Of a stretch of 64,000 bases of DNA, positions 37,864 to 61,025 are shown in pieces. Every line of letters starts with the position of its first letter. The stretch's first letter is position 1. Source of the DNA: Puniceicoccaceae bacterium Marseille-Q1082 (GTDB lineage: Bacteria; Verrucomicrobiota; Verrucomicrobiia; Opitutales; Intestinicryptomonadaceae); contig CAJGBI010000001.1 of NCBI GenBank assembly GCA_904424815.1, positions 1,569,671 through 1,633,670 of the forward strand. Reading direction: 5' to 3'. The notes under the pieces were generated by a model, which was given only the letters and a program-made list of their open reading frames with translations, was not told the origin of the DNA and did not search any database. Position numbers and translations under genes: made by a program.

Positions 37864-38985
37864 ATGAAATGCAAGTATCTGAAATCCGCTCTCGCCGCCC
37901 TCATTGCCGCATCCGCCCCTGCATGCGCGGAGGCATCCGGAAATTCTGAAGAGCCCGCGCCCGCCAAGCGCGCAACGATAGGCGCATACTACTTCGACGG
38001 ATGGTCTGGCAAAAACCGGTATGACGCGGATCCCTCCCAGCCGTGGGCAAAGGGCGCGCCCACGCATTTGACCAAAAAACTCGCCGAAGATTTCGGATTC
38101 CGCGAGCCCGTCTGGGGTTGGAGAAACGATTCCCAGGAAATAATGGACCGCCAGATAAGGCTCGCAGCGGAAAACGGCGTGGATTTCTTCCTGTTCTGCT
38201 GGTACTGGAAAGACAACAAAGGCCCCATAAACGAAGCCGCGATAGAATCGCAGCCGACGCACGCGAGCCTCAACCTGTATCTGAAATCCAAAGAAAAGGA
38301 CAAACTCAAATACTGCCTGTTAGTCGCCAACCACGGGGGATCCGAAATAATCGGCGACAAGAACTGGGAGGACGCTGTAAAATACTGGACAAGATATTTC
38401 TCCGACCCGCAATACATGCGCGTGGGGGGAAAGCCGCTTGTGGTAATCTTCGGAAGCGGCGCAAATTCCATAACCGACGCCCAGATAAAAATAATGCGCG
38501 AAACCGCAAAAAAGCTCGGCTTCAAAGACGGGATCGCCATAGCGTGCTGCCGGGGCAAACGCCCGTCTTTCGACATCGCGACGCGCTACAACGTAAACAC
38601 CTCGTACAAGGGCGAAAGCAGGGAACTTCCCTACTCCGACATCGCGAGCGCGACAAAATCCACATGGAACGGCAGCCCCGAGCAGCCTTTCATTCCAACC
38701 ATAACGTGCGGCTGGGACAAGCGGCCGTGGGAGGGCAAGGGGCCGGAAGGGCTCGGCAACACGCCCGTGGGCGGCTATTATACCGGAGACACTCCGGAAG
38801 CTTTCGGCAAGCTGCTGTCGGAAGCGATAAAGTGGATGGACGAAAATCCCGAAAAAACCCTCAAGGAGCGCATTGCCCTGATATACGCATGGAACGAGCT
38901 CGGCGAGGGAGGATACCTCGTCCCGACAAAGGGGGATCCGGAGGCGAAAAAACTGAAAACCATCGGCAAAATCGTCGGCAAATGA
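37864..38985 (+). CDS. Secreted GH99-like / WbsX-type glycan-active protein
   Basis: The 373-residue protein starts at ATG 37864 with a signal peptide (MKCKYLKSALAALIAASAPA). Its body matches the WbsX/GH99-like TIM-barrel family: TIGAYYFDGWSGKNRYD, WGWRNDSQEIMDRQIRLAAE, NGVDFFLFCWYWKDNKG, KPLVVIFGSG and the C-terminal LIYAWNELGEGGYLVPTKGD with conserved Glu residues. Members act on glycans or occur in glycan gene clusters; specificity is unknown. Upstream of this ATG lie TTGACT near 37815 and a hairpin at 37760-37784 (GCGCGTTC/GAACGCGC). The frame is open further upstream, but that part resembles leader DNA. Confidence 0.85.
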   Translation: MKCKYLKSALAALIAASAPACAEASGNSEEPAPAKRATIGAYYFDGWSGKNRYDADPSQPWAKGAPTHLTKKLAEDFGFREPVWGWRNDSQEIMDRQIRLAAENGVDFFLFCWYWKDNKGPINEAAIESQPTHASLNLYLKSKEKDKLKYCLLVANHGGSEIIGDKNWEDAVKYWTRYFSDPQYMRVGGKPLVVIFGSGANSITDAQIKIMRETAKKLGFKDGIAIACCRGKRPSFDIATRYNVNTSYKGESRELPYSDIASATKSTWNGSPEQPFIPTITCGWDKRPWEGKGPEGLGNTPVGGYYTGDTPEAFGKLLSEAIKWMDENPEKTLKERIALIYAWNELGEGGYLVPTKGDPEAKKLKTIGKIVGK

Positions 38986-39177
38986 GCCCCCCACTCCGCG
39001 CGGGGAACTGCCGGAGGGCGCATAAACCGGCGCGCCGCCCGCGAGGGAAACAGCCGGCTGCAAAGGCGCCGCGTTGAAATCCGATGCGGCGCTTTTTGCG
39101 CAGTCTCCGAAAGCCGCGCGGACTGCCCGCGCCCGGGCGCAAAAAAAACGGCCTCCCGCGAGGGAAACCGTAAGAAA

Positions 39178-39253
39178 TGGTGGCCAGACCAGGAATCGAA
39201 CCAGGGACACAAGGATTTTCAGTCCTCCGCTCTACCAACTGAGCTATCTGGCC
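39178..39253 (-). tRNA. tRNA-Phe (anticodon GAA)
   Basis: On the minus strand GGCCAGA pairs with TCTGGCC, the D arm is GCTC/GAGC, the anticodon loop is CTGAAAA giving anticodon GAA, and the T loop is TTCGATT. The discriminator is A and a 3' CCA is encoded (39180-39178), unlike the tRNA-Lys upstream. Confidence 0.96.
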
Positions 39254-39375
39254 AAAAGTTAAGCTTTCACTCCATTTTAAACGCGCCGGCATGTCAATAT
39301 ATTTTTTAAAATATTTCCGCCGCGCGCCGGCGAAAACCGCCATATGCCGCAAAGCGCGACGCGGCTCCGGATTGC

Positions 39376-39405
39376 TTGACTAAACGGAGTTTTATGTTTT
39401 AAACT
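39376..39405 (+). promoter_or_regulatory. Predicted promoter of the SGNH hydrolase gene
   Basis: TTGACT (39376-39381), an 18-base spacer and TAAACT (39400-39405) lie 19 bases before the ATG at 39424, in an AT-rich stretch. Confidence 0.45.
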
Positions 39406-39423
39406 AAAAAAAATACATCAAAC

Positions 39424-40773
39424 ATGAAATTTTTTGAAAAATCCGGATTCCGCGCGGCAATCGCCGCAGCGGCAATCGCCTCCGCCCCCTTCCAAACCGC
39501 GCTCGCGGGAGCGCCTAATCCCGAAGCCGTCCGCCCGCTCGCCGAGTTTTCCGAAAGGCTCGGAATGCCTAATCTGGCAAAAAAGCTGGAAGAAGGGAAA
39601 AACGTTAAAATCGCGTATCTCGGCGGGAGCATTACGGAGCAGAACGGCTGGCGCGTCCACTCCCGAAAATATCTGGCGCGCAAGTATCCGAAAGCGCGCG
39701 TCGGGGAAATCAACGCCGCCATCGGGGGAACCGGCTCCGACCTCGGGTGCCTGCGGGTCGGCGCGGACGTAATCTCAAAAAATCCCGACGCCGTATTTGT
39801 GGAGTTCGCCGTAAACGACGCTTGGCGGAACCCGCGCGACATATTCAGGGACATGGAGGGCATAGTCCGGCAGATTTGGGCGAAATCCAAAGAAACGGAC
39901 ATATGCTTCGTCTACACTGTGACGGAAAGGGACGCCGCCGCCCTCGAAAACGGCGAAATGTCGCGCGCGGCGAGCGCGATGGAGGCGCTGGCGGACTATT
40001 ACGGAATTCCGTCTATCCACTTCGGGAAGGAGATAGCCGGCAACCTTGCCTCCGGAAAGCTGATTATGAAAACCGGCGCCGACGTCAAATACGTGGACGG
40101 CGAGGCGCTCGACGAAAGCGCGGCAATCGCGCGGACGCCCGACGGCAAAATTCCTTTCTCGAAAGACGGCGTCCACCCGTACCCGAATACGGGGCACCTG
40201 CTCTACCAAAAGGCGTTCGCGCGCTCTTTCGACGCGCTGGCAAAATCCGGCAAAAAAGCCGGCGGCGCGGCCCGAGCGAGGTCTCTGCCGGCGGCGGACC
40301 CAATGTCGCCCGTTTCGGTGAAAACCCTTCCGCTCGACGCCGCAAAGCTGTTCGGCAAAACGGGCGACGTCCCGTGGGACTCGCCCGCAATGTCGGGAAA
40401 ATTTAAAGAGCGCGCGCCGTTTGGCTTCAAAAAATTTGAAACCGGCTCGGGCTTTGAAATCGAATTTTCCGGAAGGAGGCTCGTCATGTACGCGCTCTTC
40501 GGGCCGTCGTGCGGCGAAGCGGACGTGCGCGCAGATTCGGAAAAGGCGCGGAAGGCGAAATTCTTCGACGGGTACTCGTCATATTACAGAATGATGCCCG
40601 TAAAGCTGTTCGACGGCGGGCGCGGGAAACACCGCGCGAGGTTGGAAATGTCGGCGGAAAAAATGGACAAGCGCGCAATTCTGCTGCCGGAACACGCAAA
40701 GCGTTTTGACGAAAATCCCGCCGCATTCGCCCCGCAAAACGGCTACGCCTGCTGCCTGTACATCGTGGAATAG
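39424..40773 (+). CDS. Secreted SGNH/GDSL-family hydrolase (carbohydrate-esterase-like)
   Basis: The 449 residues begin with a signal peptide (AAIAAAAIASAPFQTALA). The SGNH blocks are in order: block I KIAYLGGSITEQNGW with the nucleophile Ser, block II INAAIGGTGSDLGCLR, block III AVFVEFAVNDAW with the conserved Asn, and block V SKDGVHPYPNTGHLLY with the catalytic Asp and His. A C-terminal beta-rich region of about 150 residues (FKKFETGSGFEIEFSGRRLV onward) resembles accessory jelly-roll domains seen with acetyl-esterases. It probably de-esterifies polysaccharides outside the cytoplasm; the substrate is not determinable. It ends at a 16-bp perfect palindrome (40773-40788). Confidence 0.88.
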   Translation: MKFFEKSGFRAAIAAAAIASAPFQTALAGAPNPEAVRPLAEFSERLGMPNLAKKLEEGKNVKIAYLGGSITEQNGWRVHSRKYLARKYPKARVGEINAAIGGTGSDLGCLRVGADVISKNPDAVFVEFAVNDAWRNPRDIFRDMEGIVRQIWAKSKETDICFVYTVTERDAAALENGEMSRAASAMEALADYYGIPSIHFGKEIAGNLASGKLIMKTGADVKYVDGEALDESAAIARTPDGKIPFSKDGVHPYPNTGHLLYQKAFARSFDALAKSGKKAGGAARARSLPAADPMSPVSVKTLPLDAAKLFGKTGDVPWDSPAMSGKFKERAPFGFKKFETGSGFEIEFSGRRLVMYALFGPSCGEADVRADSEKARKAKFFDGYSSYYRMMPVKLFDGGRGKHRARLEMSAEKMDKRAILLPEHAKRFDENPAAFAPQNGYACCLYIVE

Positions 40774-49044: not shown

Positions 49045-50544
49045 TTATTTGACCTCTATTTCCGTCGCGGGCGAGACTTTTTTGAGGGTCGCGATAAAGC
49101 CCTGCCCCACGACCGACGTGTTCTTCGGCGAGACAAACCCGTCTTTCACGAGGAAAAACTGCCGGTGCATGGACGGCTTGAAAGAGTTCATTTCGTTGTT
49201 GGTAAACTCTTTGAACAACCCGTCGGTAAAGTATATCGCGCTTATGTCGTACCCCGCGGGGATCGGAACCTTAGCCTTGTCGGAATTGAACACGAAAAAG
49301 AATTTTTCCGTCTGCGGCTGGAGCGCGCCGAGCCCGTTTTTGTCGATGAACGCCGTGGGCGAGGAATATGTCTTGCCGTCCCACTTGCGCTGCGAAAGCG
49401 GAGTGTTGTTGATGTTCTCCCAAACGGGAATCGCCTTGACGAGCTTCAGGCGCGGGGGAACGTCGCGGATAGTCTTGTAGTCAGGCATGTTGCCCGTCGC
49501 CCCCGGGCGGCCGTACCAGTGCGTCCACGCTCCGTTGACGGCGGCGACGGCGGCGATTTTGCGCGAGTTGAGCTCGTCGTAGACGTTGGGAGTGGAAGAA
49601 GAAACCTGATTCTTCTTATACAGGCCGCTCTCATAATTGCGCGGATCCTCCACGAAATCCGTACCGCCGCCCTCCGAGCACACCAAGTCGGGAAGGTATT
49701 TTTTCGTCTCTTCAAGGCCCTTTGTTTTGAGGATGTCGTTTTCAATGTCCGCTATCCAGCCCTTGTAGACGCTGTAAGGCTCAACGATGAATTTGGAGTC
49801 GGGATTTTTCTCCTTGCGGCAGCGCTCGAAGAGCCTGCGGTAAAATTCGTAGTGGCCGAGCTTGTGGGTCGGGTAGTCGTGCACGACGTCGGGATGCTTC
49901 GACGCCGAGTCGCTGCCCGTCCAATATTTGATTGTCACCTGCCTGCCGTTGTTCATCGGCGCCCCCTCGCGCTCGCTCCAGAAGTCGCCCTCCGCCTGCG
50001 GCACATCCCACGCGATTCCCGCGAACTTGAACCCCGGCGCCCTTTGCGCCATGGAGTCTATGCGCTCCATAATCCTGTCTATGGTGCGGTCGATTATGCG
50101 CTTCTGCTGGAAGTCGAGAATGCCCGAAAGGCGGTAGGGAGGGCCGAACCAGCCGGTCGCGATATTCTGCGGAAACGGCTTTGAGGCGTCCTTGAGCGCA
50201 AGCGACGTTTCAAACTCGCGGATTTCTTCCGGAGAGTATTTTTCGCGGATGTCAACCGTCCTTTTCGCAGTGCCGGATTCGGGGGTTTCAAGATAATATT
50301 TCAGCCCGTCGATATTCTTGCAGTTTTCCATGCCCCACTGGTATACGACGTGCGTATACCCCATTTGGCGGGCGTAGTCTATGTTGTCCTGCGGAGAGCC
50401 GCGCCAACATATCCCGTAAAAGTTGCGGTAGTCGTCGGGAGTGTAGGAGAGCTTCTCTTCGGCCTCTCCGCCGGCGCCGAACGCCGCGGCGAACGGAGCG
50501 GCTGCGATAAAAATCACGGCGAATTTTTTTGCGTCAATCATCAT
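49045..50544 (-). CDS. Secreted paralogue 4 of the DDYRNF-WDVPQ family (unknown, possibly glycosidase-like)
   Basis: This 499-residue protein is the last of four tandem paralogues. A signal peptide (FAVIFIAAAPFAAAFGAG) is followed by the family opening TPDDYRNFYGICWRGSPQDN and YARQMGYTHVVYQWGM. Conserved blocks then come in order: FKFAGIAWDVPQAEGDFW, SKHPDVVHDYPTHKLGHYEF, KFIVEPYSVYKGW, PDLVCSEGGGTDFVED, GRPGATGNMPDYKTIRDVPP, VWENINNTPLSQRKWDG and a C-terminal beta region. The conserved acids in WDVPQ, EPY and SEG could be catalytic in a TIM-barrel glycosidase; this is inference. Its ATG overlaps the stop of paralogue 3 (ATGATGA). Confidence 0.8.
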   Translation of the reverse strand: MMIDAKKFAVIFIAAAPFAAAFGAGGEAEEKLSYTPDDYRNFYGICWRGSPQDNIDYARQMGYTHVVYQWGMENCKNIDGLKYYLETPESGTAKRTVDIREKYSPEEIREFETSLALKDASKPFPQNIATGWFGPPYRLSGILDFQQKRIIDRTIDRIMERIDSMAQRAPGFKFAGIAWDVPQAEGDFWSEREGAPMNNGRQVTIKYWTGSDSASKHPDVVHDYPTHKLGHYEFYRRLFERCRKEKNPDSKFIVEPYSVYKGWIADIENDILKTKGLEETKKYLPDLVCSEGGGTDFVEDPRNYESGLYKKNQVSSSTPNVYDELNSRKIAAVAAVNGAWTHWYGRPGATGNMPDYKTIRDVPPRLKLVKAIPVWENINNTPLSQRKWDGKTYSSPTAFIDKNGLGALQPQTEKFFFVFNSDKAKVPIPAGYDISAIYFTDGLFKEFTNNEMNSFKPSMHRQFFLVKDGFVSPKNTSVVGQGFIATLKKVSPATEIEVK

Positions 50545-52013
50545 TTTTCGGAATCGGTTTTGTCTTTTGAGGGAACCAGGTCGGCGATGAACCCGAGCCC
50601 AGATATGGTTCTGTCTTTCGGAGAGAGCTCCGAATTTTCATATTTTATGAAAGAGTCGAGCATGGGGCTTTTGATCGGATAGTTCGCGCTGCCTTTGAAT
50701 TCGCGGAACAGCCCGTCGGTAAAGTATATCCTCGCAACGCGATAGCCCTGCGGAACCCTGACTATGCCGTCGGGGGTGTTGAACACAAAGAACAGCTTTT
50801 GCGTGCCGGGCTGGACGGCGTACACCGCATCCTCCGACATTCCCGCCGTCGGAGACGCATAGACCTGCCCGTCCCACTTGCGCTCCGAAAGCGGCGTGTT
50901 GTTGATGTTCTCCCAAACGGGGAGCGCCTTTGCGAGCTTTATTCGCGCGGGGACGTCGCGAATCGTCTTGTAGTCCGGCATATTGCCCGTCGCTCCCGGG
51001 CGCCCGAACCAGTGCGTCCACGCGCCGTTTGCCGCGGCGACTCCGGATATTTTGCGCACGGACGCCTCGTCGAAAAAGTTGGGGGTGCTCGACGAGACCT
51101 GGTCCTTTTTGTAGAGGCCGCTCTTGAAATTGCGCTCGTCCTCCACGAACTGGGTGGAAGATCCCTCTTCGCATACGAAGTCCGCCATGTACTTTTTTGC
51201 CTCCTCGGGGCCCTTCTCGGCGGCGAGCTTTTCGATGTCCTTCACCCATCCGTCGTAGACCCTGTACGGCTCGACGATAAACTTGGAATCCGGATTGATT
51301 TCGGCGCGGCACCTCTCAAAAAGCTTCCGGTAGAACTCGTAGTGGCCGAGCTCGTGCGTAGGGTAGTCGTGCGTGACATCAGGGTGCTTGGACGCCGAGC
51401 CGCTGCCCGTCCAGTGCGAAATCGAAACCTGCCTGCCGTTGCTCATGGGATTGCCCTTCTTGCCGGTCCAGAAGTCGCCCTCGGCCTGCGGCACGTCCCA
51501 CGCCGCCCCCGCGAACTTGAACCCCGGGCGCGCCTTCTCGATTTTGCGGATGCGCTCTATGATTTTGTCAACGGTGCGGTCTATGACTTTTTTCTGCTGG
51601 AAATCCGGAATTATCGTTATGCCGTTCGGCGGCATGAACCAGCCGGTTGCGAGGTTTTCGGGGAACGGCTTGGAGGCGTCTTTGAGCGCGGCGAACGTCT
51701 CAAATTTCCTGATTTCTTCGGGGGAATATTTTTTTGAAACGTCGACGGCGCGCGTGTAGGTGGCGTACTCGGGCGATTCAAGGTAGAATTTCATGCCCGC
51801 GGCATTCTTGCACTTCTCCATTCCGTTTATATAGAATACGCTCGTATACCCCATCTGGCGGGCGTAGTCTATATTGTCCTGCGGCGAGCCGCGCCAGCAT
51901 ATGCCGAAAAAGTTGCGGTAGTCGTCCCTGTCGTATTTCGGCGAGTCCGCGGACGCCCACGGCGCGCAAAACGCGGCGAACGCGAAAACCGCCCCGCAAT
52001 TGCAAAACCTCAT
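50541..52013 (-). CDS. Secreted paralogue 3 of the DDYRNF-WDVPQ family (unknown)
   Basis: The 490-residue protein has a short signal peptide (AVFAFAAFCAPWASA) and is closest to paralogue 4. It opens DRDDYRNFFGICWRGSPQDN, then has FKFAGAAWDVPQAEGDFW, HWTGSGSASKHPDVTHDYPT, KFIVEPYRVYDGW, ADFVCEEGSSTQFVEDERNF, SSSTPNFFDE, WFGRPGATGNMPDYKTIRDV, VWENINNTPLSERKWDG and a C-terminal beta domain. It starts four bases after the stop of paralogue 2 and overlaps paralogue 4. Substrate and activity are unknown. The long-range identity with paralogue 4 indicates a relatively late duplication. Confidence 0.8.
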   Translation of the reverse strand: MRFCNCGAVFAFAAFCAPWASADSPKYDRDDYRNFFGICWRGSPQDNIDYARQMGYTSVFYINGMEKCKNAAGMKFYLESPEYATYTRAVDVSKKYSPEEIRKFETFAALKDASKPFPENLATGWFMPPNGITIIPDFQQKKVIDRTVDKIIERIRKIEKARPGFKFAGAAWDVPQAEGDFWTGKKGNPMSNGRQVSISHWTGSGSASKHPDVTHDYPTHELGHYEFYRKLFERCRAEINPDSKFIVEPYRVYDGWVKDIEKLAAEKGPEEAKKYMADFVCEEGSSTQFVEDERNFKSGLYKKDQVSSSTPNFFDEASVRKISGVAAANGAWTHWFGRPGATGNMPDYKTIRDVPARIKLAKALPVWENINNTPLSERKWDGQVYASPTAGMSEDAVYAVQPGTQKLFFVFNTPDGIVRVPQGYRVARIYFTDGLFREFKGSANYPIKSPMLDSFIKYENSELSPKDRTISGLGFIADLVPSKDKTDSEK

Positions 52014-52017
52014 AATT

Positions 52018-53526
52018 TCATCCTTCCGTCTTTTTAAATTTCACGACATACGGCTGGTTTATAACCCCGGGATCGTCGGGAATTATTTTGCCGTTTTCAA
52101 TTTTAACCAGCGGCGGCCGCGTGCTGCCCCACTTCGGGACTTCGTTCGGGGGCATGCCGTCGATTTTGTTGAAAACGCCGTCGAGGGCGGAAATTTCTTC
52201 GACCTCATACCCCTTCGGAACCGGCACGGAGCCGCCGAGCTTCACAAACGAAAAATAAACCTCGCCGCTCTCGGGGTGCGTGGCCCATATCGCGGAATCC
52301 GTCATGCCGGCAGAAGGCGAGGAATAAACGGAGCCGTCCCACTTGCGCTCCGAAAGCGGCGTGCCTATGAGATTTTCCCATACGGGCAGGAGCTTTGCGA
52401 TTTTAAGGCGCGCGGGAACGTCGCGGATATAATGGTATCTCGGGCAGTTGCCCGTGCCCCCTATGCGGCCGAACCATGTGCTCCACGAGCCGTTGACGGC
52501 CGCCGCCGCCGCGATTTTGCGAGCCTGCGGCTCGTCCCAAACGTTGGGCGTGGAAGTGCCGGTGCGCGACTTGTCCAGCAGGCCGCTTTTAAACGCGCGC
52601 TCGTCGTCCACAAAACCCGTCGTGCCGTTTTCCTCGAGGACGAAATCGGGCATGTACTTTTTGGCGTCCGCGCCCTTAGACTTCATAAAGTCCGAATCCA
52701 TGTGGCGCATCCAGTCGTTGTAGACGTTGTAGGGCTCCACTATGAACTTCACGTCGGGGTTGAGTTCTTTTGCGGCGCGCTCGCGCAAAAGGCGCAGGAA
52801 CTCGAAATAGCCCTCGGAATACGTCGCGTAATCGTGCACGACGTCGGGGTGCTTGGACCCCGAATCCTTGCCCGTCCAGTGCGCGAGGGTTATCTGCCTG
52901 CCCTTTTGCGTGGCCTGTTCGGCGTCCCAAAAATCCCCGAAGGGCTGCGGGACATCCCAGCTGAAACCCGCAAACTTGAATTTCGGGTTTATCTTTTGGA
53001 GCTTTTTGACGTTTTCGATGATTTTGTCTATCGTGCGGTCTATCACCTTCCGCTGCTGGAAGTCGAGCTGCACGCTGAATACGGTCGGCGTGGAGAACCA
53101 TCCGGTCGCGAGATTTTCGGGGAACGGCTTGGAGGCGTCTTTGAGCGCGCATGTGGTCTCCCACTCCCTTATCTGCTCGGGAGAATACTTTTTGGAGGGA
53201 TCTACATAGCGGCGGTACGTGCCGTACTCCGGAGTTTCGATATAGAAAAACATGCCGTCGGCGTCGGGGGTTCTCGCCATGGCGGGCCCCATCGACATGA
53301 CGTGCGAAAACCCCATGCGCTTCGCAAAGGATATGACTTCTTTCGCGTCAGCCTGCCAGCCCGCGCCGAAGTAGTTGCGGTAGTCGTCCTTCGGATACTT
53401 CGACGGCGAAGCAGGCGCCGCCTCCGCGCCTCCGGAAGCTCCGGCGGATGCGGAATCCTGGGCGCGGGAAATCGGGGTGAAAGACGCGGCAATCGCCGCT
53501 ACGCATGCTATTTTAAATATTTTCAT
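52018..53526 (-). CDS. Secreted paralogue 2 of the DDYRNF-WDVPQ family (unknown)
   Basis: The 502-residue protein starts at ATG 53526 with a signal peptide (MKIFKIACVAAIAASFTPIS). After a Ser/Ala-rich linker it has YPKDDYRNYFGAGWQADAKE. This lacks the GICW/GLCW motif of the others and ends the strand GAGW. It continues FKFAGFSWDVPQPFGDFW, HWTGKDSGSKHPDVVHDYAT, KFIVEPYNVYNDWMRHMDS, PDFVLEENGTTGFVDDERAF, STPNVWDEPQ, RIGGTGNCPRYHYIRDVPAR and VWENLIGTPLSERKWDG. The third acidic block reads LEEN in place of CSEG. It is most similar to paralogue 1. The gap to paralogue 1 is 38 bases from this start. Confidence 0.8.
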   Translation of the reverse strand: MKIFKIACVAAIAASFTPISRAQDSASAGASGGAEAAPASPSKYPKDDYRNYFGAGWQADAKEVISFAKRMGFSHVMSMGPAMARTPDADGMFFYIETPEYGTYRRYVDPSKKYSPEQIREWETTCALKDASKPFPENLATGWFSTPTVFSVQLDFQQRKVIDRTIDKIIENVKKLQKINPKFKFAGFSWDVPQPFGDFWDAEQATQKGRQITLAHWTGKDSGSKHPDVVHDYATYSEGYFEFLRLLRERAAKELNPDVKFIVEPYNVYNDWMRHMDSDFMKSKGADAKKYMPDFVLEENGTTGFVDDERAFKSGLLDKSRTGTSTPNVWDEPQARKIAAAAAVNGSWSTWFGRIGGTGNCPRYHYIRDVPARLKIAKLLPVWENLIGTPLSERKWDGSVYSSPSAGMTDSAIWATHPESGEVYFSFVKLGGSVPVPKGYEVEEISALDGVFNKIDGMPPNEVPKWGSTRPPLVKIENGKIIPDDPGVINQPYVVKFKKTEG

Positions 53527-53564
53527 AATCGCAATGTTCGATTTTTCGGCGCGCATGGCGGCCG

Positions 53565-55106
53565 CTATTTGTCTTTGTTCAGCGCCCCGCCCTTTTTGGC
53601 GAGCTGCGCGATAAATCCGGCGTTGACGACATACGGGCTGCGGGGGACGATTTTGCCCTTCTTAACCGAAACTATGCTCTTTTTGGCGGGAAAAGTTTTG
53701 ATCTCCTGCCAGAGCCCGTCAGCGTGGTATATTTCCTTGACTTTGTACCCGTCGGGAATCTTGACCTCGCCCTTGTCGGATAGGAACACGAAAAACAGCT
53801 TTTTCGTCTCCGGCTGGATTGCCCATATCACGTCCGGCGTCATTTCAGCGGTCGGGCTGGAATAGTTCACGCCGTCCCATTTGCGCTGCGACAGAGGCGT
53901 GCCGTTGAGGTTCTCCCACACCGCGACCGCGCGGTTGAGCTTGACGCGCGCGGGGATGTCGCGGATCGAGCGGTATCCCGGGTTGTTGCCCGTCCCTCCG
54001 GGGCGGCCGAACCAGCCCGTCCAGGCGCCCTTCGAGGCGGCGGCTCCGGCTATCTTGCGAAGAGTCTCGTCGTCGAATACGTTGGGGGTCGTGGAGGCTA
54101 CCCTCGTCCTGTCGATCAGCCCGCTCTCGAAATTCTTGGGGTTGTCTACAAATTCGGTTCCATTGCCCTCCGAGCACACCAGATCGGGCATATATTCACT
54201 GCGCTTGTCTCCCTTGGCCTTCATGAAATCCCAATCCATGTAGCGCATCCAGTCGTTGTACACGCTGTACGGCTCCACTATCCACTTGGCTTCGGGATTT
54301 ATCTGGCTGCGGGCCTTCTGGAAAAGCCTGCGGTAAAATTCAAAATGCCCCTCGGAATATGTGGCATACTCATGCGTGACGTCGGGGTGCTTGACGCTCG
54401 CGTCCTTGCCGGTCCAGTGGGCGAGGGTGACCTGCCTGCCGTTGTGCATCTTCTTGGTCGTGTGCTCGCTCCAAAAGTCGCCGAAAGGCTGCGGGACGTC
54501 CCACGCAAATCCCGAAAACTTAAATTCGGGATTCGCCATCTGGATTTTTTTTACCTTGTCGATTATCTTGTTCGTGATGTCCTCTATGACCTTTTCCTGT
54601 TGGAGGTCGAGCGTGGCGGTGAAATGGTGCGGGGGCACGAACCAGCCGGTGGCCATATTCTGCGGGAACGGCTTATCGAGCGATATGAGCGAACATGTTG
54701 TCTCCCACTCGCGTATCACTTCCGGCGGATATTTTTTTGAGATGTCTATCACCCTTCTGTAAACAGAGTACTCGGGGGACTCCATCACGAAATACATTCC
54801 CTTTGAAAGCGGGTGTTTTTCCATGCCGCCCTGATAGTAGACGTGCTTGTAGCCCATCTGGCGGGCGTAGCGCAGAATCTCGTCCGGATTGCTTATCCAG
54901 CAGAGGCCGAAAAAGTTGCGGTAGTCGTCCGCGGAGTAGTTCGGAATGTCCGGAGCCGCGCCCTTTTCCGAAGCGGCCTCCGGCGCCCGAGCCGCCGAGT
55001 TTTCGGCGTCCGGAAGGGACGTCGGCGCGGCTTCCTGCGCCGCGGCTTGAACCGCGGAAAGGGCCGACGCGCATATCGCGCACAATATGGATTTGCCTAT
55101 ATTCAT
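53565..55106 (-). CDS. Secreted paralogue 1 of the DDYRNF-WDVPQ family (unknown), first gene of the operon
   Basis: The 513-residue protein starts at ATG 55106 with a signal peptide (MNIGKSILCAICASALSAVQ) and an Ala/Pro/Glu linker. The family core is YSADDYRNFFGLCWISNPDE, YARQMGYKHVYYQGGMEK, FKFSGFAWDVPQPFGDFW, HWTGKDASVKHPDVTHEYAT, KWIVEPYSVYNDWMRYMDW, PDLVCSEGNGTEFVDNPKNF, STTPNVFDD, GRPGGTGNNPGYRSIRDIPA and VWENLNGTPLSQRKWDG. Its frame is open far upstream, but that part is antisense to the divergent gene. A strong promoter precedes it at 55188-55216. The family is not one I can name; a secreted glycosidase-like enzyme or glycan-binding protein is a guess from layout. Confidence 0.8.
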   Translation of the reverse strand: MNIGKSILCAICASALSAVQAAAQEAAPTSLPDAENSAARAPEAASEKGAAPDIPNYSADDYRNFFGLCWISNPDEILRYARQMGYKHVYYQGGMEKHPLSKGMYFVMESPEYSVYRRVIDISKKYPPEVIREWETTCSLISLDKPFPQNMATGWFVPPHHFTATLDLQQEKVIEDITNKIIDKVKKIQMANPEFKFSGFAWDVPQPFGDFWSEHTTKKMHNGRQVTLAHWTGKDASVKHPDVTHEYATYSEGHFEFYRRLFQKARSQINPEAKWIVEPYSVYNDWMRYMDWDFMKAKGDKRSEYMPDLVCSEGNGTEFVDNPKNFESGLIDRTRVASTTPNVFDDETLRKIAGAAASKGAWTGWFGRPGGTGNNPGYRSIRDIPARVKLNRAVAVWENLNGTPLSQRKWDGVNYSSPTAEMTPDVIWAIQPETKKLFFVFLSDKGEVKIPDGYKVKEIYHADGLWQEIKTFPAKKSIVSVKKGKIVPRSPYVVNAGFIAQLAKKGGALNKDK

Positions 55107-55187: not shown

Positions 55188-55216
55188 TATTTTTGCGCAT
55201 ACCGCGCGATTGTCAA
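55188..55216 (-). promoter_or_regulatory. Predicted promoter of the four-paralogue operon
   Basis: On the minus strand TTGACA (55216-55211), a 17-base spacer and AAAATA (55193-55188) lie about 80 bases upstream of the ATG of paralogue 1. The -35 is perfect and the -10 moderate. Confidence 0.5.
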
Positions 55217-55274: not shown

Positions 55275-56138
55275 GTGAAAATTCTTTGTCTTGCCTGTTG
55301 CGCCGCCGCCGCGTTTTCCATATGCGCGCGCGGCGCCGAAACCGATAACTCCCCGAAAAAATCCGAAGGGCAAAATTCCCCAGCCTCCCCCGCAGCGTTT
55401 TTTTCGGACGTAAACCCCGACTGGCCGAACTGGCAAAAACGCTCGTACAGTTACGGCATGGACAAGTCGAAAGTTCCGGTCCCGATATTCTTCGATTCCC
55501 CAATTTCGACAAATTCCACAATAATGGTGCGCGGGGGCGACAACTACAAGAAGAGGTGGGGGCTGCACGTTTTCGAGGCGTACGCCGCCGACGACACGTC
55601 GAGAATCACGATGATACTCAACAAGCATTTCGAGGAGGGCCTGCCCGTCGCCGAACTCTACTATTACGCCTCCGCCTACGGTCAGGGTCTGAACGCCTAC
55701 AACTGGTTCAGGATAGGCTCCGACGTGCCGTACCACTCGTTCATGTTCTCGCGCGACAGGGCGATTTTCTACGGGCAAACGGAGTTCCGCAACCTGATAC
55801 GCCTCGACAACATCGGCGCTGAGGACTTGTCCGAGGAAAATACGGACTGGAAGAAGTCGAACGAGGAAGCGAAGAAAACCGTGAAGCGCGAGGACTACCC
55901 GACCGAGGGGACGTACCGCCACGCGATAACCGCCGAGGGCTACAAAAAAGAGGCAAAATACCTGAAAGCGCAGGCGTTGAAAAACGCGGGCGACGGGACG
56001 ATGTTTTACGACAGGGACTACAATATAATAGTGGCAAAAGTCGGCGGCAAATGGAAGAAAGTCCCCGTAGAAGAGCTCCCCGAGGGCCATCCTCTGCGCG
56101 ATCCGGACGGCGGCCACTCCCGCCTTCCGGAGCGGTAA
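55275..56138 (+). CDS. Secreted hypothetical protein divergent from the four-paralogue operon
   Basis: The 287-residue product begins at GTG 55275 with a signal peptide (MKILCLACCAAAAFSICARG, continuing AE). The mature part has SDVNPDWPNWQKRSYSYGMD, VPVPIFFDSPISTNSTIMVR, YKKRWGLHVFEAYAADDTSR and GLNAYNWFRIGSDVPYHSFM. A charged C-terminal third follows (TVKREDYPTEGTYRHAITAE). It is rich in Tyr and Trp. I recognise no family. An in-frame upstream extension is antisense to paralogue 1 and lacks a signal peptide, so the GTG is preferred. Shared control with the paralogue operon is likely from the divergent layout. Confidence 0.65.
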   Translation: MKILCLACCAAAAFSICARGAETDNSPKKSEGQNSPASPAAFFSDVNPDWPNWQKRSYSYGMDKSKVPVPIFFDSPISTNSTIMVRGGDNYKKRWGLHVFEAYAADDTSRITMILNKHFEEGLPVAELYYYASAYGQGLNAYNWFRIGSDVPYHSFMFSRDRAIFYGQTEFRNLIRLDNIGAEDLSEENTDWKKSNEEAKKTVKREDYPTEGTYRHAITAEGYKKEAKYLKAQALKNAGDGTMFYDRDYNIIVAKVGGKWKKVPVEELPEGHPLRDPDGGHSRLPER

Positions 56139-56308: not shown

Positions 56309-56545
56309 CTACCAGCCGGCGAGGGGAATTTTTCGCGACGGGGCGGGAAACGCCGCGTCAATGTCGCGCAAATCCTCCTCTGTCAGCTCCACATTAAGGC
56401 TGCGGAAATTTTCCTCCACATGCTCCGCTCCCCCCGCTTTCGGAATCGCGATTACGTCGCCGCGGATTGTCCATGCCAACATGATTTGCGCGGGGGTGGC
56501 GCAACGCCGGCGGGCTATTTCCGCCAGCGCCCCGCCGCGCATCCA
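56309..56545 (-). pseudogene. C-terminal fragment of a split aldo/keto reductase gene
   Basis: The minus strand encodes GGALAEIARRRCATPAQIML, AWTIRGDVIAIPKAGGAEHV, EENFRSLNVELTEEDLRDID and AAFPAPSRKIPLAGW, then a stop. This is the C-terminal quarter of an AKR of the YeaE type, including the NADPH-binding IPKA segment. The preceding three quarters lie at 61026-61598, separated by the AT-rich integrative element. The fragment cannot form an active barrel. The first residues at the junction are uncertain. Confidence 0.85.
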
Positions 56546-56669
56546 ACGCCTCTCTTATAAGAGTTCTTACAGCCTGCGATTGGTTGTAGCTCACGGCTCT
56601 TATTTCCGGCATCCATGATACCGGAACGTTCGATATGTTCAAATATGTCGTTAACTCATCCATTAGCAT
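56546..56669 (-). CDS. Small RHH-like protein gene whose 3' end crosses the element junction
   Basis: From ATG 56669 the frame reads MLMDELTTYLNISNVPVSWM, PEIRAVSYNQSQAVRTLIRE and ALDA, then leaves the element and runs out of frame across the AKR fragment to 56394. The SQAVRTLIREAL helix resembles a ribbon-helix-helix second helix. If the element were circular and closed at the shared GTTGG, the frame would continue ALGLRIEDVAVAK and stop. The intact protein may therefore exist only in the excised form. Coding status is uncertain. Confidence 0.45.
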
Positions 56670-56719
56670 AAGGTTTAATAAACCATTGGGTCTTTTTATT
56701 TATATTTCAAATTGTGATT

Positions 56720-56932
56720 CTATTTCCTGTGTGCGCCAATAGGTTTATTAAACCCTTTGACGAATTTCTCCAGCCCTTCTTTCACCAGATCATCGAGAGA
56801 ACGATTTTCCTTTTTAATAATCCCAAAAAGAGAGTTAAACGTCTTCGAGGAGATTTCAAATTCTATCCTCACAAGGTTTATTAAACCTCTTTTTTGAGAG
56901 TTATTCTTTCTTGTGCGTTTTTTTGTTTTCAT
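56720..56932 (-). CDS. Small ribbon-helix-helix-like protein
   Basis: The 70-residue basic protein has a Lys/Arg-rich N-terminus (MKTKKRTRKNNSQKRGLINL). A strand and two helices typical of RHH proteins follow: VRIEFEISSKTFNSLFGIIK and KENRSLDDLVKEGLEKFVKG. It overlaps the upstream RHH gene by 32 bases. Two of the four palindromes are embedded in its reading frame. Likely roles are operator or centromere-type DNA binding, or an excision accessory factor; none is shown. Base composition is AT-rich like the rest of the element. Confidence 0.65.
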   Translation of the reverse strand: MKTKKRTRKNNSQKRGLINLVRIEFEISSKTFNSLFGIIKKENRSLDDLVKEGLEKFVKGFNKPIGAHRK

Positions 56933-57080
56933 ATTCAGCTACGAGTTTTTCCATGGCCAATCGAAGGGCTTCTGTAAAAGACATACCTTGTTCATTTGCG
57001 ATTGCTTTGACGCGACGCACAAGTTTCTTTTCTTGTGAGGAAGAAATACGTTGCTTGGTATCTGACAATTTATTCGGCAT
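56901..57080 (-). CDS. Small ribbon-helix-helix (CopG/MobC-like) protein
   Basis: This 59-residue protein runs from ATG 57080 to TAA at 56901. It reads MPNKLSDTKQRISSSQEKKL, VRRVKAIANEQGMSFTEALR, LAMEKLVAEYENKKTHKKE. The basic strand region and the helices AIANEQGMSFTEALRLAMEKL fit a CopG-type RHH repressor. GGTTTAATAAACC lies 30 bases upstream, suggesting autoregulation. It is translated in a different frame and overlaps the second RHH gene by 32 bases. It is shorter than usual annotation cut-offs and easily missed. Confidence 0.65.
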   Translation of the reverse strand: MPNKLSDTKQRISSSQEKKLVRRVKAIANEQGMSFTEALRLAMEKLVAEYENKKTHKKE

Positions 57081-57198
57081 ATCTCCATATTGTGAAGATA
57101 GACCAAAAAGGTTTAATAAACCAAGTCAATAAAAATTTTTTATTTTTTTATTTTTTTCTTGCTCGATGTCTCATTAATTATAAACAATAATTAGCATC

Positions 57199-57657
57199 GT
57201 GAAATCTAATGATTACAATATTTTAATTATAATTCCCATCCAAATAATATCCATAATTATTTATATATTCCCACCTGTTCCTACGGGGATTGAATATTCT
57301 GATGTTTTATTGTTCATTAAAGTGTTTTGTATAGTATCTTTTTCTATAACCGGAATATTTATTATTTTATATTGCATCAATTCCCGAGGTAGAATTATAG
57401 CGAACTCGCGTAATTTATTTATGAAAATACACAATATTCGCAATCAAAATAAGCGTAAACTATTTATATGCGTTACGGTATTTATGGCAATAGCCACACT
57501 TTTATACATATTCCGTTGGGAATATTCATATGTAACCACAAATAGGGCTATTGTACAATTCCGCAGAAATATATATACCGGGGCAACTCAATATAGATCA
57601 TCATATACTGATGGAATTTGGCGTACATGGGGCGATGAAACATCAAGTAAGAAATAA
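57199..57657 (+). CDS. Element-encoded membrane protein with WEYSY domain (module A)
   Basis: The 152 residues have three hydrophobic segments (about residues 8-25, 38-58 and 88-105). A short C-terminal domain reads FRWEYSYVTTNRAIVQFRRN, IYTGATQYRSSYTDGIWRTW. The block RWEYSY...FRxNIYTG...YR is shared with the next gene, which shows common ancestry. No database family is recalled. Composition is strongly AT-rich. It is the first of three tandem plus-strand genes; the gap to the next is 155 bp. The product probably sits in the membrane with the WEYSY domain at the C-terminal side. Confidence 0.6.
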   Translation: MKSNDYNILIIIPIQIISIIIYIFPPVPTGIEYSDVLLFIKVFCIVSFSITGIFIILYCINSRGRIIANSRNLFMKIHNIRNQNKRKLFICVTVFMAIATLLYIFRWEYSYVTTNRAIVQFRRNIYTGATQYRSSYTDGIWRTWGDETSSKK

Positions 57658-57812
57658 GATACATATTCAATCCATGTGAAACCTTGCTCTTTTCTATTGC
57701 TTCTCTATTGAGCCTTGAACCAATCATTGGGATGCAAGGTTGCAATTGCAATATGGGGCATAATCAGTTTGTCGATGTTTACAGGTGGCAATAACATAAA
57801 CATTTATATGTC

Positions 57813-58409
57813 ATGAGACACAAATTTCTTTTTGGATTTATTGTTGTTTTCGTTCTCATCGCAGTGTTTCTTTACAGAAACCGCTGGGAATATTCATATG
57901 AACGTATAGGGTTTAACAATGAGATAACAATAATATTTCGTGAGAATATATATACCGGAACAATCTATCCATACAGAACTTCTGTTTCATATAACAATGA
58001 GGACATAGAATATATCAAATTATACGTTCCTTCGCATTGCATAGATACCAGACAATATAAATTTTATTTGCGCGATATTCTCGCGAGAGAGCTCCGTTTT
58101 CGGGGATATAAGATAAAATTGGCAATAGAAATTCTCTATGATAATGATTATTCATGTGATCTTATTGCAAATAAGTCGTTCATTGCAATAGAGCAAGCCT
58201 CAAATTGGCCCGATGCACATGCACGTTCTGCTATTGGTTCTAGCATATATGATGGATATAAACAATGCATAGCGCTTTTTGACTTTCATAAACTCTCATC
58301 CTTAGAAAAAGATACTCTAAGAAAGATATGCTCCGGATTTGGGACAAAAATCATAATTATTCATACAGTTCCCGTTTGGGATTATACATTTCCCGTAAGT
58401 CCTGTATGA
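57813..58409 (+). CDS. Membrane-anchored protein joining WEYSY module A to nuclease-like module B
   Basis: The 198-residue protein has one N-terminal membrane helix (FLFGFIVVFVLIAVFLY). Module A follows (NRWEYSYERIGFNNEITIIF, RENIYTGTIYPYRTS), as in the preceding gene. Its C-terminal 115 residues (module B) are homologous to the next gene: RDILARELRFRGYKIKLAIE, SCDLIANKSFIAIEQASNWP and CIALFDFHKLSSLEKDTLRK. Module B resembles PD-(D/E)XK nucleases in its D...AIE pattern, but the third catalytic position is Gln/Ala here, so activity is doubtful. Its stop overlaps the next start (ATGA). Confidence 0.6.
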   Translation: MRHKFLFGFIVVFVLIAVFLYRNRWEYSYERIGFNNEITIIFRENIYTGTIYPYRTSVSYNNEDIEYIKLYVPSHCIDTRQYKFYLRDILARELRFRGYKIKLAIEILYDNDYSCDLIANKSFIAIEQASNWPDAHARSAIGSSIYDGYKQCIALFDFHKLSSLEKDTLRKICSGFGTKIIIIHTVPVWDYTFPVSPV

Positions 58410-58855
58410 AACATTCCTTCCTCTTTTTCTTAGCTGCGCTGTTTATTTCACTTGTCTCGTGCAGTAACGACGACACCGAATACATAGAAATTCATCACCT
58501 TCCGCATAAATCCGAAAATCTCGCCACGAATGAATCACATTACCGCGACGCGCTTCTGCGGGAACTTCAACTTCGCGGATATTCTGTGAGAAAAGAAGTA
58601 AAATGCCGCGGCGGGCGTTGCGATATTTTAACGGACAAATATGCTATTGAAGTTGACCGCGCCTCAAAACGGCACGAGGCAATCGGGCAGGCAGTACACT
58701 ATTCCATTACGTTAAAGCGCAAGCCGTGCATTGCGTTATTTGACTTCCACAAACTCTCGACTGAAAAACGTGAAGCCCTAAAATCCGTATGCGCCAAACT
58801 CGGAATAAAAATCATGTTTATCTACTCGGCACCAATTAAGACGGCGCAATTTTAA
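58406..58855 (+). CDS. Lipoprotein with PD-(D/E)XK-like nuclease fold (module B)
   Basis: The 149-residue product begins with a lipoprotein signal (FLFFLAALFISLVSC). The body carries a restriction-endonuclease-like pattern: RDALLRELQLRGYSVRKEVK, RGGRCDILTDKYAIEVDRAS, KRHEAIGQAVHYSITLKRKP, CIALFDFHKLSTEKREAL. The D-IL...AIEVD arrangement and the following EAIGQ helix are what small predicted PD-(D/E)XK enzymes show, with Asp at the usual Lys position. A nuclease-like domain on a lipoprotein is unusual. The start overlaps the previous stop. A role in DNA uptake, interference with incoming DNA, or a non-catalytic sensor is possible; none is demonstrated. Confidence 0.6.
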   Translation: MKHSFLFFLAALFISLVSCSNDDTEYIEIHHLPHKSENLATNESHYRDALLRELQLRGYSVRKEVKCRGGRCDILTDKYAIEVDRASKRHEAIGQAVHYSITLKRKPCIALFDFHKLSTEKREALKSVCAKLGIKIMFIYSAPIKTAQF

Positions 58856-58910
58856 GAAATTGCGGGATCAACGACGTTCTGTGCAAATTTTTTCTTGCGA
58901 GAGGGAAAAG

Positions 58911-58930
58911 TGCAACTATATTTAGTTGCA
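58911..58930 (+). promoter_or_regulatory. HicAB operator overlapping its promoter
   Basis: TGCAACTA-TATT-TAGTTGCA is a perfect inverted repeat ending four bases before the hicA ATG. A promoter TTGCGA (58895-58900) with TATATT (58917-58922, 16-base spacer) overlaps it. Antitoxin HicB binding here would repress the operon. Confidence 0.7.
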
Positions 58931-58934
58931 TAAA

Positions 58935-59186
58935 ATGAAAAAGGATAAACTTCTGCAGAAGCTTTTGAGCGAGCCGAAAGACTACCGTTGGGAAGAATTA
59001 ACGGTTCTCCTGGCGAGTTTGGGATATTCCGAAGCGTCAACAGGCAAAACAGGCGGTTCAAGAAGAAGATTTATCTCCGATAAAAACAGGGCGTTAACAT
59101 TTCACAAGCCGCATCCGAAGGGAATCTTGAAAAGATACCAAATAAAAAGTGTGATAGAAACATTAAAGGCGGAAGGGTTGATATGA
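58935..59186 (+). CDS. hicA: HicA-type mRNA interferase toxin
   Basis: HicA is a small dsRBD-fold RNase that cleaves mRNA. The 83 residues read KKDKLLQKLLSEPKDYRWEE, LTVLLASLGYSEASTGKTGG, SRRRFISDKNRALTFHKPHP and KGILKRYQIKSVIETLKAEG. The GGSRRRF segment and the conserved His in TFHKPHP (the catalytic-type His) fit the family, as does the final helix. ATG 58935 is preferred over an upstream TTG that lies within the operator. Its last four bases overlap the hicB start. Confidence 0.92.
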   Translation: MKKDKLLQKLLSEPKDYRWEELTVLLASLGYSEASTGKTGGSRRRFISDKNRALTFHKPHPKGILKRYQIKSVIETLKAEGLI

Positions 59187-59512
59187 CGAACACGATAAAA
59201 TATAAGGGGTATACGGGAAGCGTTGAAATATCGGAAGAGGACAACTGCCTTTTCGGCAAGGTGCTTTTTATTCGTTCGCTGCTATCCTACGAAGGGCGGA
59301 CGCTCGAAGAAATAAAAAAAGACTTCAAGGACGCAGTAGACGATTACTTGCAACTTTGTGAAGAAAATGGAGTCGAGCCCGAAAAGCCGTTTAAAGGGTC
59401 GTTCAATGTGCGCGTGCGGCCGGAGGTTCATCGCGGGCTTGCAATAGCGGCGGCAAAGCGCGGCGAGAGCCTGAATAAATACGTTTCCGAAATACTTAAC
59501 AGCGCGATTTAA
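59183..59512 (+). CDS. hicB: HicB-type antitoxin
   Basis: HicB neutralises HicA and binds the operon operator. The 109 residues have the partial RNase H fold (YKGYTGSVEISEEDNCLFGK, VLFIRSLLSYEGRTLEEIKK, DFKDAVDDYLQLCEENGVEP). A C-terminal ribbon-helix-helix follows (FKGSFNVRVRPEVHRGLAIA, AAKRGESLNKYVSEIL). The RHH form explains the short palindromic operator upstream. Toxin-first order with ATGA overlap is typical of hicAB. The pair probably stabilises the integrative element. Confidence 0.93.
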   Translation: MTNTIKYKGYTGSVEISEEDNCLFGKVLFIRSLLSYEGRTLEEIKKDFKDAVDDYLQLCEENGVEPEKPFKGSFNVRVRPEVHRGLAIAAAKRGESLNKYVSEILNSAI

Positions 59513-59572
59513 TGCGAGTTAAGCTTTTGGAAATTCATGCCTTGCGCCGTTTAACTTCCGCAAGTTTTCGAC

Positions 59573-59611
59573 AAAAAAACGGAAGACCCCGAAATACTCC
59601 GAAATCTTCCG
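59573..59611 (-). terminator. Intrinsic terminator of the integrase gene
   Basis: On the minus strand CGGAAGA (59611-59605) pairs with TCTTCCG (59586-59580) around an 18-base loop, followed by seven T residues (59579-59573). It lies 40 bases after the recombinase stop at 59652. Confidence 0.65.
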
Positions 59612-59638
59612 CCGACCGAGTTAAGCGGAATTTTTTTT
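59607..59638 (+). terminator. Intrinsic terminator of hicAB
   Basis: TTCCGC (59607-59612) pairs with GCGGAA (59625-59630), followed by eight T residues (59631-59638). It overlaps by five bases the oppositely oriented terminator of the integrase gene, so the two convergent units end back to back. Confidence 0.7.
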
Positions 59639-59651
59639 CAAAAAATCAAGC

Positions 59652-60863
59652 CTATTGAGGCGCAATCTCAAAATACTTTTGAGCTACGCTCTTTTCAACA
59701 AGAGAGCCAAAATACCTGTTCACCAGTATTTGCGGGGAATTTCTTGTGATTCTCGCGGTTCGCGCAGGGTCGTAGTAAAGACTCAAATGGTAGGTTGAAA
59801 ACGACCGGCGCGCAAAGTTGTACGGCAGGCGGACGACGTTTTTTGAGAGCATAGCCCGTTCGTCGCCGGAGGGGCGGATTATTTTTGCATTTTTATATTT
59901 TTCGAGCCATTCCCAGAGATTCTCCGGCAAATTTTCGAGCGTCCATGCCTTTTTCACTTTGCCTATTTGCGCCGGAAAAGTAATTTTCCTGTCTTCGTAG
60001 CGGAAGTACTCGTCCCGCAGTCGGGGGATTTCCGCCACTCTTATGCCGGCGAAAAGCCCCAGCGCATAGAAACGCGCATAGATGGGGCGCTCTTTTTCGA
60101 TAAATTCCATGAATGTCCGCGCGTCCCCGACACTCAAAAATTCGATTTTGCGCTCAATATTCGCCTGTTCGCCGCCTATCGGCGCGTATTCGTCGGGGTG
60201 GATTTTGTCCATCGGATTGGCCGAGAACGCCCCGCGCATTATGCAATACTTGTAAAATTCTCCGATTGTCCCGCGCCAATGGGAAATTGTTTTTGGCATT
60301 CCCTTGCCCCTGATCCATTCAAGAAGCTTTCTCGGGGCGGCGTCGGCAAAGGTGGGGAAGGTTTTTTTGAAATTTCTGATGCGCCCGCAAACTTCGAGGA
60401 ACTCCACGCGGCAGAGATTGCCGGCTTCGTGTTTAGCTTTTTTCATCGCAATGAAGTCGTCGGCGAGCGTTTCGACCGACATCGCGCTTTCGTATGGCCA
60501 GGCGGTTTTTACGGATTCCACAAGGGTTTTTCCTGGCGGCAAAAGGCTTAAAGCTTCCCGCATATCCTCCAAAACCGCGGCTGGGTATTGGGCGAAGTCG
60601 GAAATTTCAAATTTGCGGGAATCGAGAATGTTTTTCCGATAGAACAGCGCATCCGATTTCAGCCTGAAAAACCTCCTTGAAACCTTTTTCGTCTTTGGAT
60701 CCCTAAACCCGACACACCAGTATTCGATGCCGTTTTTCTTGACCCTGTAAAGATTTTTTATTTTCTGGCTTGGCGTACCGGAAATAGCTTCCGAATTGTC
60801 TGCTCCCACAGACGCGGCATTGCAATTATCTGCGGACGAGGGGGGGAGTTTTATTTTTTTCAT
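59652..60863 (-). CDS. Tyrosine recombinase/integrase of the element
   Basis: The 403-residue protein starts at ATG 60863 (MKKIKLPPSS). An arm-type/AP2-like N-terminus (KNGIEYWCVGFRDPKTKKVS) and a SAM-like core-binding domain precede the catalytic domain. The first Arg is in LGLFAGIRVAEIPRL near residue 272, the second region is NFARRSFSTYHL near 350 and the nucleophile Tyr is in VNRYFG near 382. The usual H-x-x-R reads N-F-A-R and the later His is Asn (TRNSP), so two conserved His positions are altered. This matches divergent integrases seen in Verrucomicrobia. It lies about 160 bp from the right junction. Confidence 0.88.
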   Translation of the reverse strand: MKKIKLPPSSADNCNAASVGADNSEAISGTPSQKIKNLYRVKKNGIEYWCVGFRDPKTKKVSRRFFRLKSDALFYRKNILDSRKFEISDFAQYPAAVLEDMREALSLLPPGKTLVESVKTAWPYESAMSVETLADDFIAMKKAKHEAGNLCRVEFLEVCGRIRNFKKTFPTFADAAPRKLLEWIRGKGMPKTISHWRGTIGEFYKYCIMRGAFSANPMDKIHPDEYAPIGGEQANIERKIEFLSVGDARTFMEFIEKERPIYARFYALGLFAGIRVAEIPRLRDEYFRYEDRKITFPAQIGKVKKAWTLENLPENLWEWLEKYKNAKIIRPSGDERAMLSKNVVRLPYNFARRSFSTYHLSLYYDPARTARITRNSPQILVNRYFGSLVEKSVAQKYFEIAPQ

Positions 60864-60872
60864 GGGGTAAAT

Positions 60873-60925
60873 GGTACATATTTGGTGCGTAAAAATCAAT
60901 ACAATAGTGTACATAGAGTGTACAT
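60873..60925. repeat. GTGTACAT direct repeats upstream of the integrase gene
   Basis: GTGTACAT occurs at 60907-60914 and 60918-60925, 11 bp apart (about one helical turn), and a related GGTACAT at 60873-60879. They lie between the recombinase start and the right junction. They may be recombinase arm sites or an operator for the integrase promoter. Confidence 0.5.
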
Positions 60926-61025
60926 TACCTGTATCATAAGAATAACATCAAATCAACATTAACACCATAATTTACAACAACTTCTATTTTGCAACTGCCA
61001 CATCTTCAATCCTTAACCCCAACAA

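Follow-up and report, generated by a model that had tools for sequence, protein, structure and literature searches.

What do four adjacent genes for similar, apparently exported proteins contribute to this bacterium of the phylum Verrucomicrobiota, and to what family do they belong? The genes make up one array on the reverse strand, running from position 55106 to 49045 of the window (the whole 64,000-nucleotide stretch of DNA analysed), with products of 513, 512, 490 and 499 amino acids. The answer developed here, which we hold to be probable, is that they form one operon of secreted, unclassified, glycoside-hydrolase-like barrel paralogues using the acidic residues D173 and E283 (gene 3 numbering).

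The array and its standing in family databases

The genes and the nearest promoter-like site are as follows.

53565..55106, reverse strand: gene 1 (513 aa, P0001), signal-peptide-like N terminus, three conserved acids retained
52018..53556, reverse strand: gene 2 (512 aa, P0002), alternative ATG at 53525, three acids retained, Ala at the E66 position
50541..52013, reverse strand: gene 3 (490 aa, P0003), the protein used for the AlphaFold2 model
49045..50544, reverse strand: gene 4 (499 aa, P0004), overlapping gene 3 by 4 bp, with gene 3 as its closest paralogue (64%)
55189..55216, reverse strand: sigma-70-like site upstream of gene 1, TTGACA-16-AAAAAT, a consensus match only

Genes 1 and 2 are 8 bp apart (39 bp if gene 2 starts at 53525), genes 2 and 3 are 4 bp apart, and genes 3 and 4 overlap by 4 bp. 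All four N termini carry a hydrophobic core (Kyte-Doolittle maximum 2.2-2.5 in an 11-residue window) and, by eye, an AxA-like site. A sequence-only reading of this DNA had described four tandem secreted paralogues, and the frames, the signal-peptide-like N termini and an alignment over the whole length bear it out: the tandem array of secreted paralogues is real, and its family is unclassified. That reading also placed the genes under one promoter. A sigma-70-like site does lie upstream of gene 1, but the window holds five such sites against 3.8 expected in shuffles, which is near chance, so that a single promoter may be presumed at most. The motifs it listed as shared are present in all four proteins, except that gene 2 has GRIG for GRPG and that the first motif is correctly DDYRN, two residues, G. 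The change it saw in gene 2 as "LEEN" in fact retains a glutamate aligned with the conserved one; what gene 2 has lost is the glutamate of "GME" (E66), replaced by alanine.

Identity between pairs of paralogues, 46.8-64.0% of aligned codons over an alignment that spans the whole length, is far above chance. Each of the six pairs has a dN (0.29-0.52) lower than its dS (1.06-1.38, near saturation), so the duplications are old, and all four copies look to be under constraint at the protein level. Genes 3 and 4 had been named the closest pair, and they are indeed sisters in the tree (100/99) with 64% identity. The second pair proposed, genes 1 and 2, is not borne out: gene 2 takes no settled place in the tree, and its identities are near those of other pairs (over the whole length, 50.2% for genes 1 and 2 vs 50.0% for genes 1 and 3; in the core, 53.6% vs 51.4-51.5% for gene 1 with genes 3 and 4). 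Gene 1 groups instead with a copy on another contig of the same genome (84/89).

No credible match was found in Pfam for any of the four window proteins or for the 20 members of alignment A2, in NCBIfam for the 18 members of alignment A3 (as judged by the author's eye, there being two weak matches), or among PDB sequences by profile search. The two NCBIfam matches, NF040656 (6.5e-4, in one of the 18 members) and NF011077 (weak), were judged to be chance, as was a weak Pfam match to GlgX_C; the PDB profile matches, spliceosome and NusG proteins with E of at least 0.038, were likewise taken as chance. Gene 3 has no tblastn match in plasmids, and a limited literature search on Verrucomicrobiota glycoside hydrolases found no description of the family in what it covered. 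The label "unrecognised family" is therefore good for Pfam, NCBIfam and PDB sequences, and profile searching gave no confident match to a well-described family in Pfam. Novelty was judged against these three collections. Pfam may have no model for some of the newer CAZy families, and it is possible, if doubtful, that the family is already defined in CAZy, with neither a Pfam or NCBIfam model nor a solved relative. The empty searches of all three collections count against this, and such a prior definition would be compatible with the proteins being enzymes.

Elsewhere in the window, several features merit record in their own right. Opposite the operon start, positions 55275-56138 encode a divergent 287-aa protein of secreted look and no confident Pfam family. 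Positions 56500-61000 form an island of low G+C (eight of nine 500-bp steps at 0.29-0.46, vs about 0.54-0.62 around it). Inside it are a gene of the HicB family (59183-59512), a small protein that matches PD-(D/E)XK weakly and below threshold (58328-58855), two small proteins that resemble each other by eye (57199-57657 and 57813-58409), and a 403-aa frame without a match that looks like a recombinase by eye (59652-60863). A second small carbohydrate-related spot, at 37864-40773, has a WbsX-like protein (PF14307, 5e-22) and a GDSL-like esterase (PF13472) flanking a tRNA-Phe gene (39178-39253).

Predicted fold and candidate active site

The AlphaFold2 model of the gene 3 protein (one model, from 20 aligned sequences) has a mean pLDDT of 88.5 (at least 90 for 380 of the 490 residues) and a pTM of 0.87. 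DSSP output read by eye gives a (beta/alpha)8 barrel at about residues 30-370, with strands near 35-39, 58-60, 123-127, 166-173, 244-250, 279-282, 306-308 and 333-337, and then a C-terminal beta domain at 390-481. A Foldseek search of the PDB with this model yields 147 matches at E<=0.001. The 50 listed are, from their titles, all glycosidases or transglycosidases (lmo2446 and MYORG among them we take to be of glycosidase type), led by dextranase, maltase-glucoamylase/sucrase-isomaltase and alpha-galactosidase. TM-scores for these 50 are 0.26-0.38 by query length, with rmsd of 10-17 A over long alignments, so the Foldseek result is a hint of fold class and assigns no family.

Alignment A5 has 27 rows. 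Three of these are degenerate and were set apart, and the very distant row from genome G358 (L049) was left out because its placement changes from one alignment to another (E283 is matched in A3, unmatched in A5), which leaves 23 canonical rows. W172, D173 and E283 are each invariant in all 23, and position 248 is always acidic (E in 15, D in 8). Of the 21 rows that extend to E66, 20 retain it; gene 2 of the window is the one that does not. The candidate active-site codons in gene 3 are these.

51495..51497, reverse strand: D173, end of barrel strand 4, putative nucleophile
51270..51272, reverse strand: E248, within strand 5 close to its end; canonical rows have E or D
51165..51167, reverse strand: E283, just after strand 6, putative general acid/base

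Barrel glycosidases carry their catalytic acids at such strand-end places, and all four window copies retain the acids at positions 173, 248 and 283. These acids would presumably face one pocket. The pairing of Asp on strand 4 with Glu on strand 6 recalls the layout of alpha-glycosidase-type barrels. On strand 7, columns 308, 310, 311 and 313 show no conserved acid in 17 rows (column 311 has D in 5 of them). D278 and E368 are present in every one of the 20 rows of A2, the degenerate rows too, so an acid may be conserved without being catalytic; these two residues are more likely structural. The sequence-only reading had guessed at a glycosidase-like barrel, and the guess has gained ground: the model is a barrel with conserved acids at its strand ends, the Foldseek matches are of glycosidase type (with weak TM-scores), and carbohydrate genes keep it company in other genomes.

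A barrel of this kind might also belong to some other TIM-barrel enzyme, such as a sugar isomerase or epimerase, and one weak match of the first profile (genome G014, E 2.6e-5) does fall on what is by eye a xylose-isomerase-like frame. That match is confined to profile positions 24-152, which take in the signal peptide region, and was counted false; the columns of A2 and A3 that are invariant or nearly so include no histidine that could bind a metal, and the structural matches listed are glycosidases. We regard an isomerase or epimerase as very improbable.

For comparison with known glycosidases, profiles of GHL6, GH31, GH29 and GH36, each built from 20 sequences of the phylum, were aligned by hhalign to three query profiles of the family, with shuffled controls. 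The power of this comparison is limited, since GH31 against GH36, members of one clan, reached only 46.6% in the first set-up. A first hhalign run gave 30% for GHL6 (PF14871), in an alignment where the strand-4 Asp had no partner; once insert columns were taken out the value was 1.1-1.5%, and the score is reached by 0, 1 and 1 of 30 shuffles. There is no Pfam match to GHL6 in the family, and no GHL6 match in the bacterium's own genome. These scores are near the top of the shuffles, and any link to GHL6 would be very weak at best. Nor was kinship borne out for GH29 (0.5-1.1%; score reached by 2, 1 and 0 of 30 shuffles; reversed profile about equal; no PF01120 match), GH31 (0.1-0.9%; 1, 19 and 8 of 30; no Pfam match) or GH36 (0.3-0.7%; 5, 3 and 3 of 30; no Pfam match). 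The GH29 scores, like those of GHL6, are close to the highest shuffles, whereas most GH31 and GH36 comparisons fall well inside the shuffled range.

Likenesses of layout are to be read in that light. GH31 and GH36 (clan GH-D) carry one Asp where strand 4 ends and another at strand 6. Together with GH66 they supply the top Foldseek matches, and they resemble the window family in having a strand-4-end Asp, here the candidate nucleophile, and a strand-6 acid; in the window family, however, the strand-6 acid is Glu (23 of 23 canonical rows) where theirs is Asp, and TM-scores are below 0.4. From the GH66 dextranases the family is set apart by its want of any Pfam match. GH29 enzymes have a barrel, a C-terminal beta domain and an Asp nucleophile on strand 4, all of which recur here in prediction, and two alpha-L-fucosidases are among the 50 Foldseek matches listed. 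Clan GH-A (GH10, GH35, GH42) uses a Glu acid/base on strand 4 and a Glu nucleophile on strand 7, whereas here strand 4 ends in Asp and the strand-7 columns examined hold no conserved acid. GH13 has Asp on strand 4, Glu on strand 5 and Asp on strand 7; the family differs in its strand 5 (E in 15 of 23, D in 8 of 23) and, again, in strand 7. The family can work in the manner of a glycosidase without demonstrated membership in any named one.

Distribution, genomic company and degenerate copies

The bacterium's own genome (2.7 Mb, three contigs) has seven copies: four in the window, two elsewhere on contig 1 and one on contig 2. In the genus, the family occurs in this genome and in 5 of 13 others (G002, G004, G008, G009 and G012), a count taken from a search of 88 genomes of which 13 are other genomes of the genus; the single additional match in that search is the false one in G014. 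Outside the genus it was found in six genomes (G196, G358, G450, G529, G663 and G709). By sample, 387 genomes drawn from the phylum gave matches in G000, G196 and G358; 384 drawn from the class, in G000, G529, G663 and G709; 145 relatives of G196, in G196 and G450; and 148 relatives of G358, in G358 alone. These draws overlap, and those from phylum and class scored at most four candidates per genome, which leaves their absences less than firm; as far as these samples go, the family is rare and patchy among Verrucomicrobiota genomes. The count of full copies excludes a fragment at a contig end (G012:C109; L010, L031) and L033, a second piece of the L029 gene.

Five of the six relatives outside the genus lie beside carbohydrate genes; the sixth, the very divergent one in G358, lies between frames that are sulfatase-like by eye. 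The neighbours recognised, there and in the genus, are listed by genome.

G196: GH10, GH39 and GH42-like genes, and an MFS-type transporter by eye
G450: GH10, GH42-like and DUF6259 genes
G709: GH10 and GH42-like genes
G663: GH10, GH39 and SASA esterase genes
G529: DUF4832 gene and a cellulase-like gene
G009, contig 26: three SASA esterases directly upstream
G002, contig 5: one SASA esterase directly upstream
Own genome, two other copies: one adjoining a GH95-like gene, one 2.5 kb from a GH43 gene
Own genome, another copy: facing, by eye, galactokinase-, sugar-epimerase- and nucleotide-sugar-like genes

Among the genes adjoining the four-gene array of the window, none was recognised as coding for a carbohydrate enzyme; the same holds for the surroundings of the G004 and G008 copies, where the genes look like housekeeping genes by eye.

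A second family without a Pfam match recurs beside the relatives in G196, G450, G529 and G663 (L041 7165-8463 and 13943-15082; L056 5069-6400 and 6358-7752; L145 4727-6019; L146 1843-3183). It is marked by AHAxLW, TPEDC/TPEEC and GWWSPIENG-like stretches and may, by eye, be a helical-barrel glycosidase.

The three degenerate copies are each directly behind a canonical copy in sister genomes.

G009, L045:8811-10259: gap to the canonical copy 15 bp
G002, L048:9440-10657: gap 9 bp
G012, L029:1327-2559: from a 1-bp overlap to an 11-bp gap, by start codon

They have R, R and K at position 283 and F at 172 in all three; D173 is missing in two, and two reach a length of only about 400 aa. In the tree the degenerate copies group together (100/99), with their canonical neighbours as the sister clade (88/89). 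By eye, efflux-pump-like genes follow the pair in G009 and G002 and tryptophan-synthesis genes adjoin it in G012, so the canonical and degenerate copies have stayed together while their context changed. This suggests that an active and an inactive copy may work together.

Non-catalytic versions thus seem to be kept, an E283-less copy adjoining a canonical one in three genomes, and the window has four copies side by side. Both facts would suit glycan-binding or scaffold proteins built on a barrel fold, perhaps parts of one surface complex and not enzymes. For the multi-subunit surface complex that the sequence-only reading had also suggested, these canonical and degenerate pairs would be the nearest hint. 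Binding would, however, hardly demand the three acids in every window copy, nor D173 and E283 in 23 of 23 canonical rows, and we think it quite unlikely that the four proteins only bind. That they are enzymes is, on conserved residues and predicted fold, the likely reading.

Proposed working and meaning

As enzymes, the proteins would be exported by way of their signal peptides, the barrel and C-terminal beta domain acting outside the cytoplasm, where their task would be to cut the glycosidic bonds in complex polysaccharides that are probably acylated. D173 at the end of strand 4 would be the nucleophile and E283 at strand 6 the acid/base, with the E or D at 248 on strand 5 helping. Each of the four copies may have its own share of related linkages or side chains, and their specialisation on related substrates, which had been suggested from the four retained copies, is plausible. 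A bolder extension, speculative and in our view rather unlikely, is a new glycoside hydrolase family whose active and dead paralogues come as co-translated pairs and whose active copies come in tandem, acting as secreted hetero-oligomers on acylated plant or algal glycans.

Should the proteins prove to be binding proteins only, they would still represent an undescribed secreted family, with seven copies in a 2.7-Mb genome. If the enzyme reading is true, the array would represent a so far undefined family of enzymes, often encoded beside carbohydrate genes, whose catalytic residues can be put to the test, and the natural copies lacking E283 would be ready-made comparisons. The array matters mainly as a fresh candidate enzyme family.
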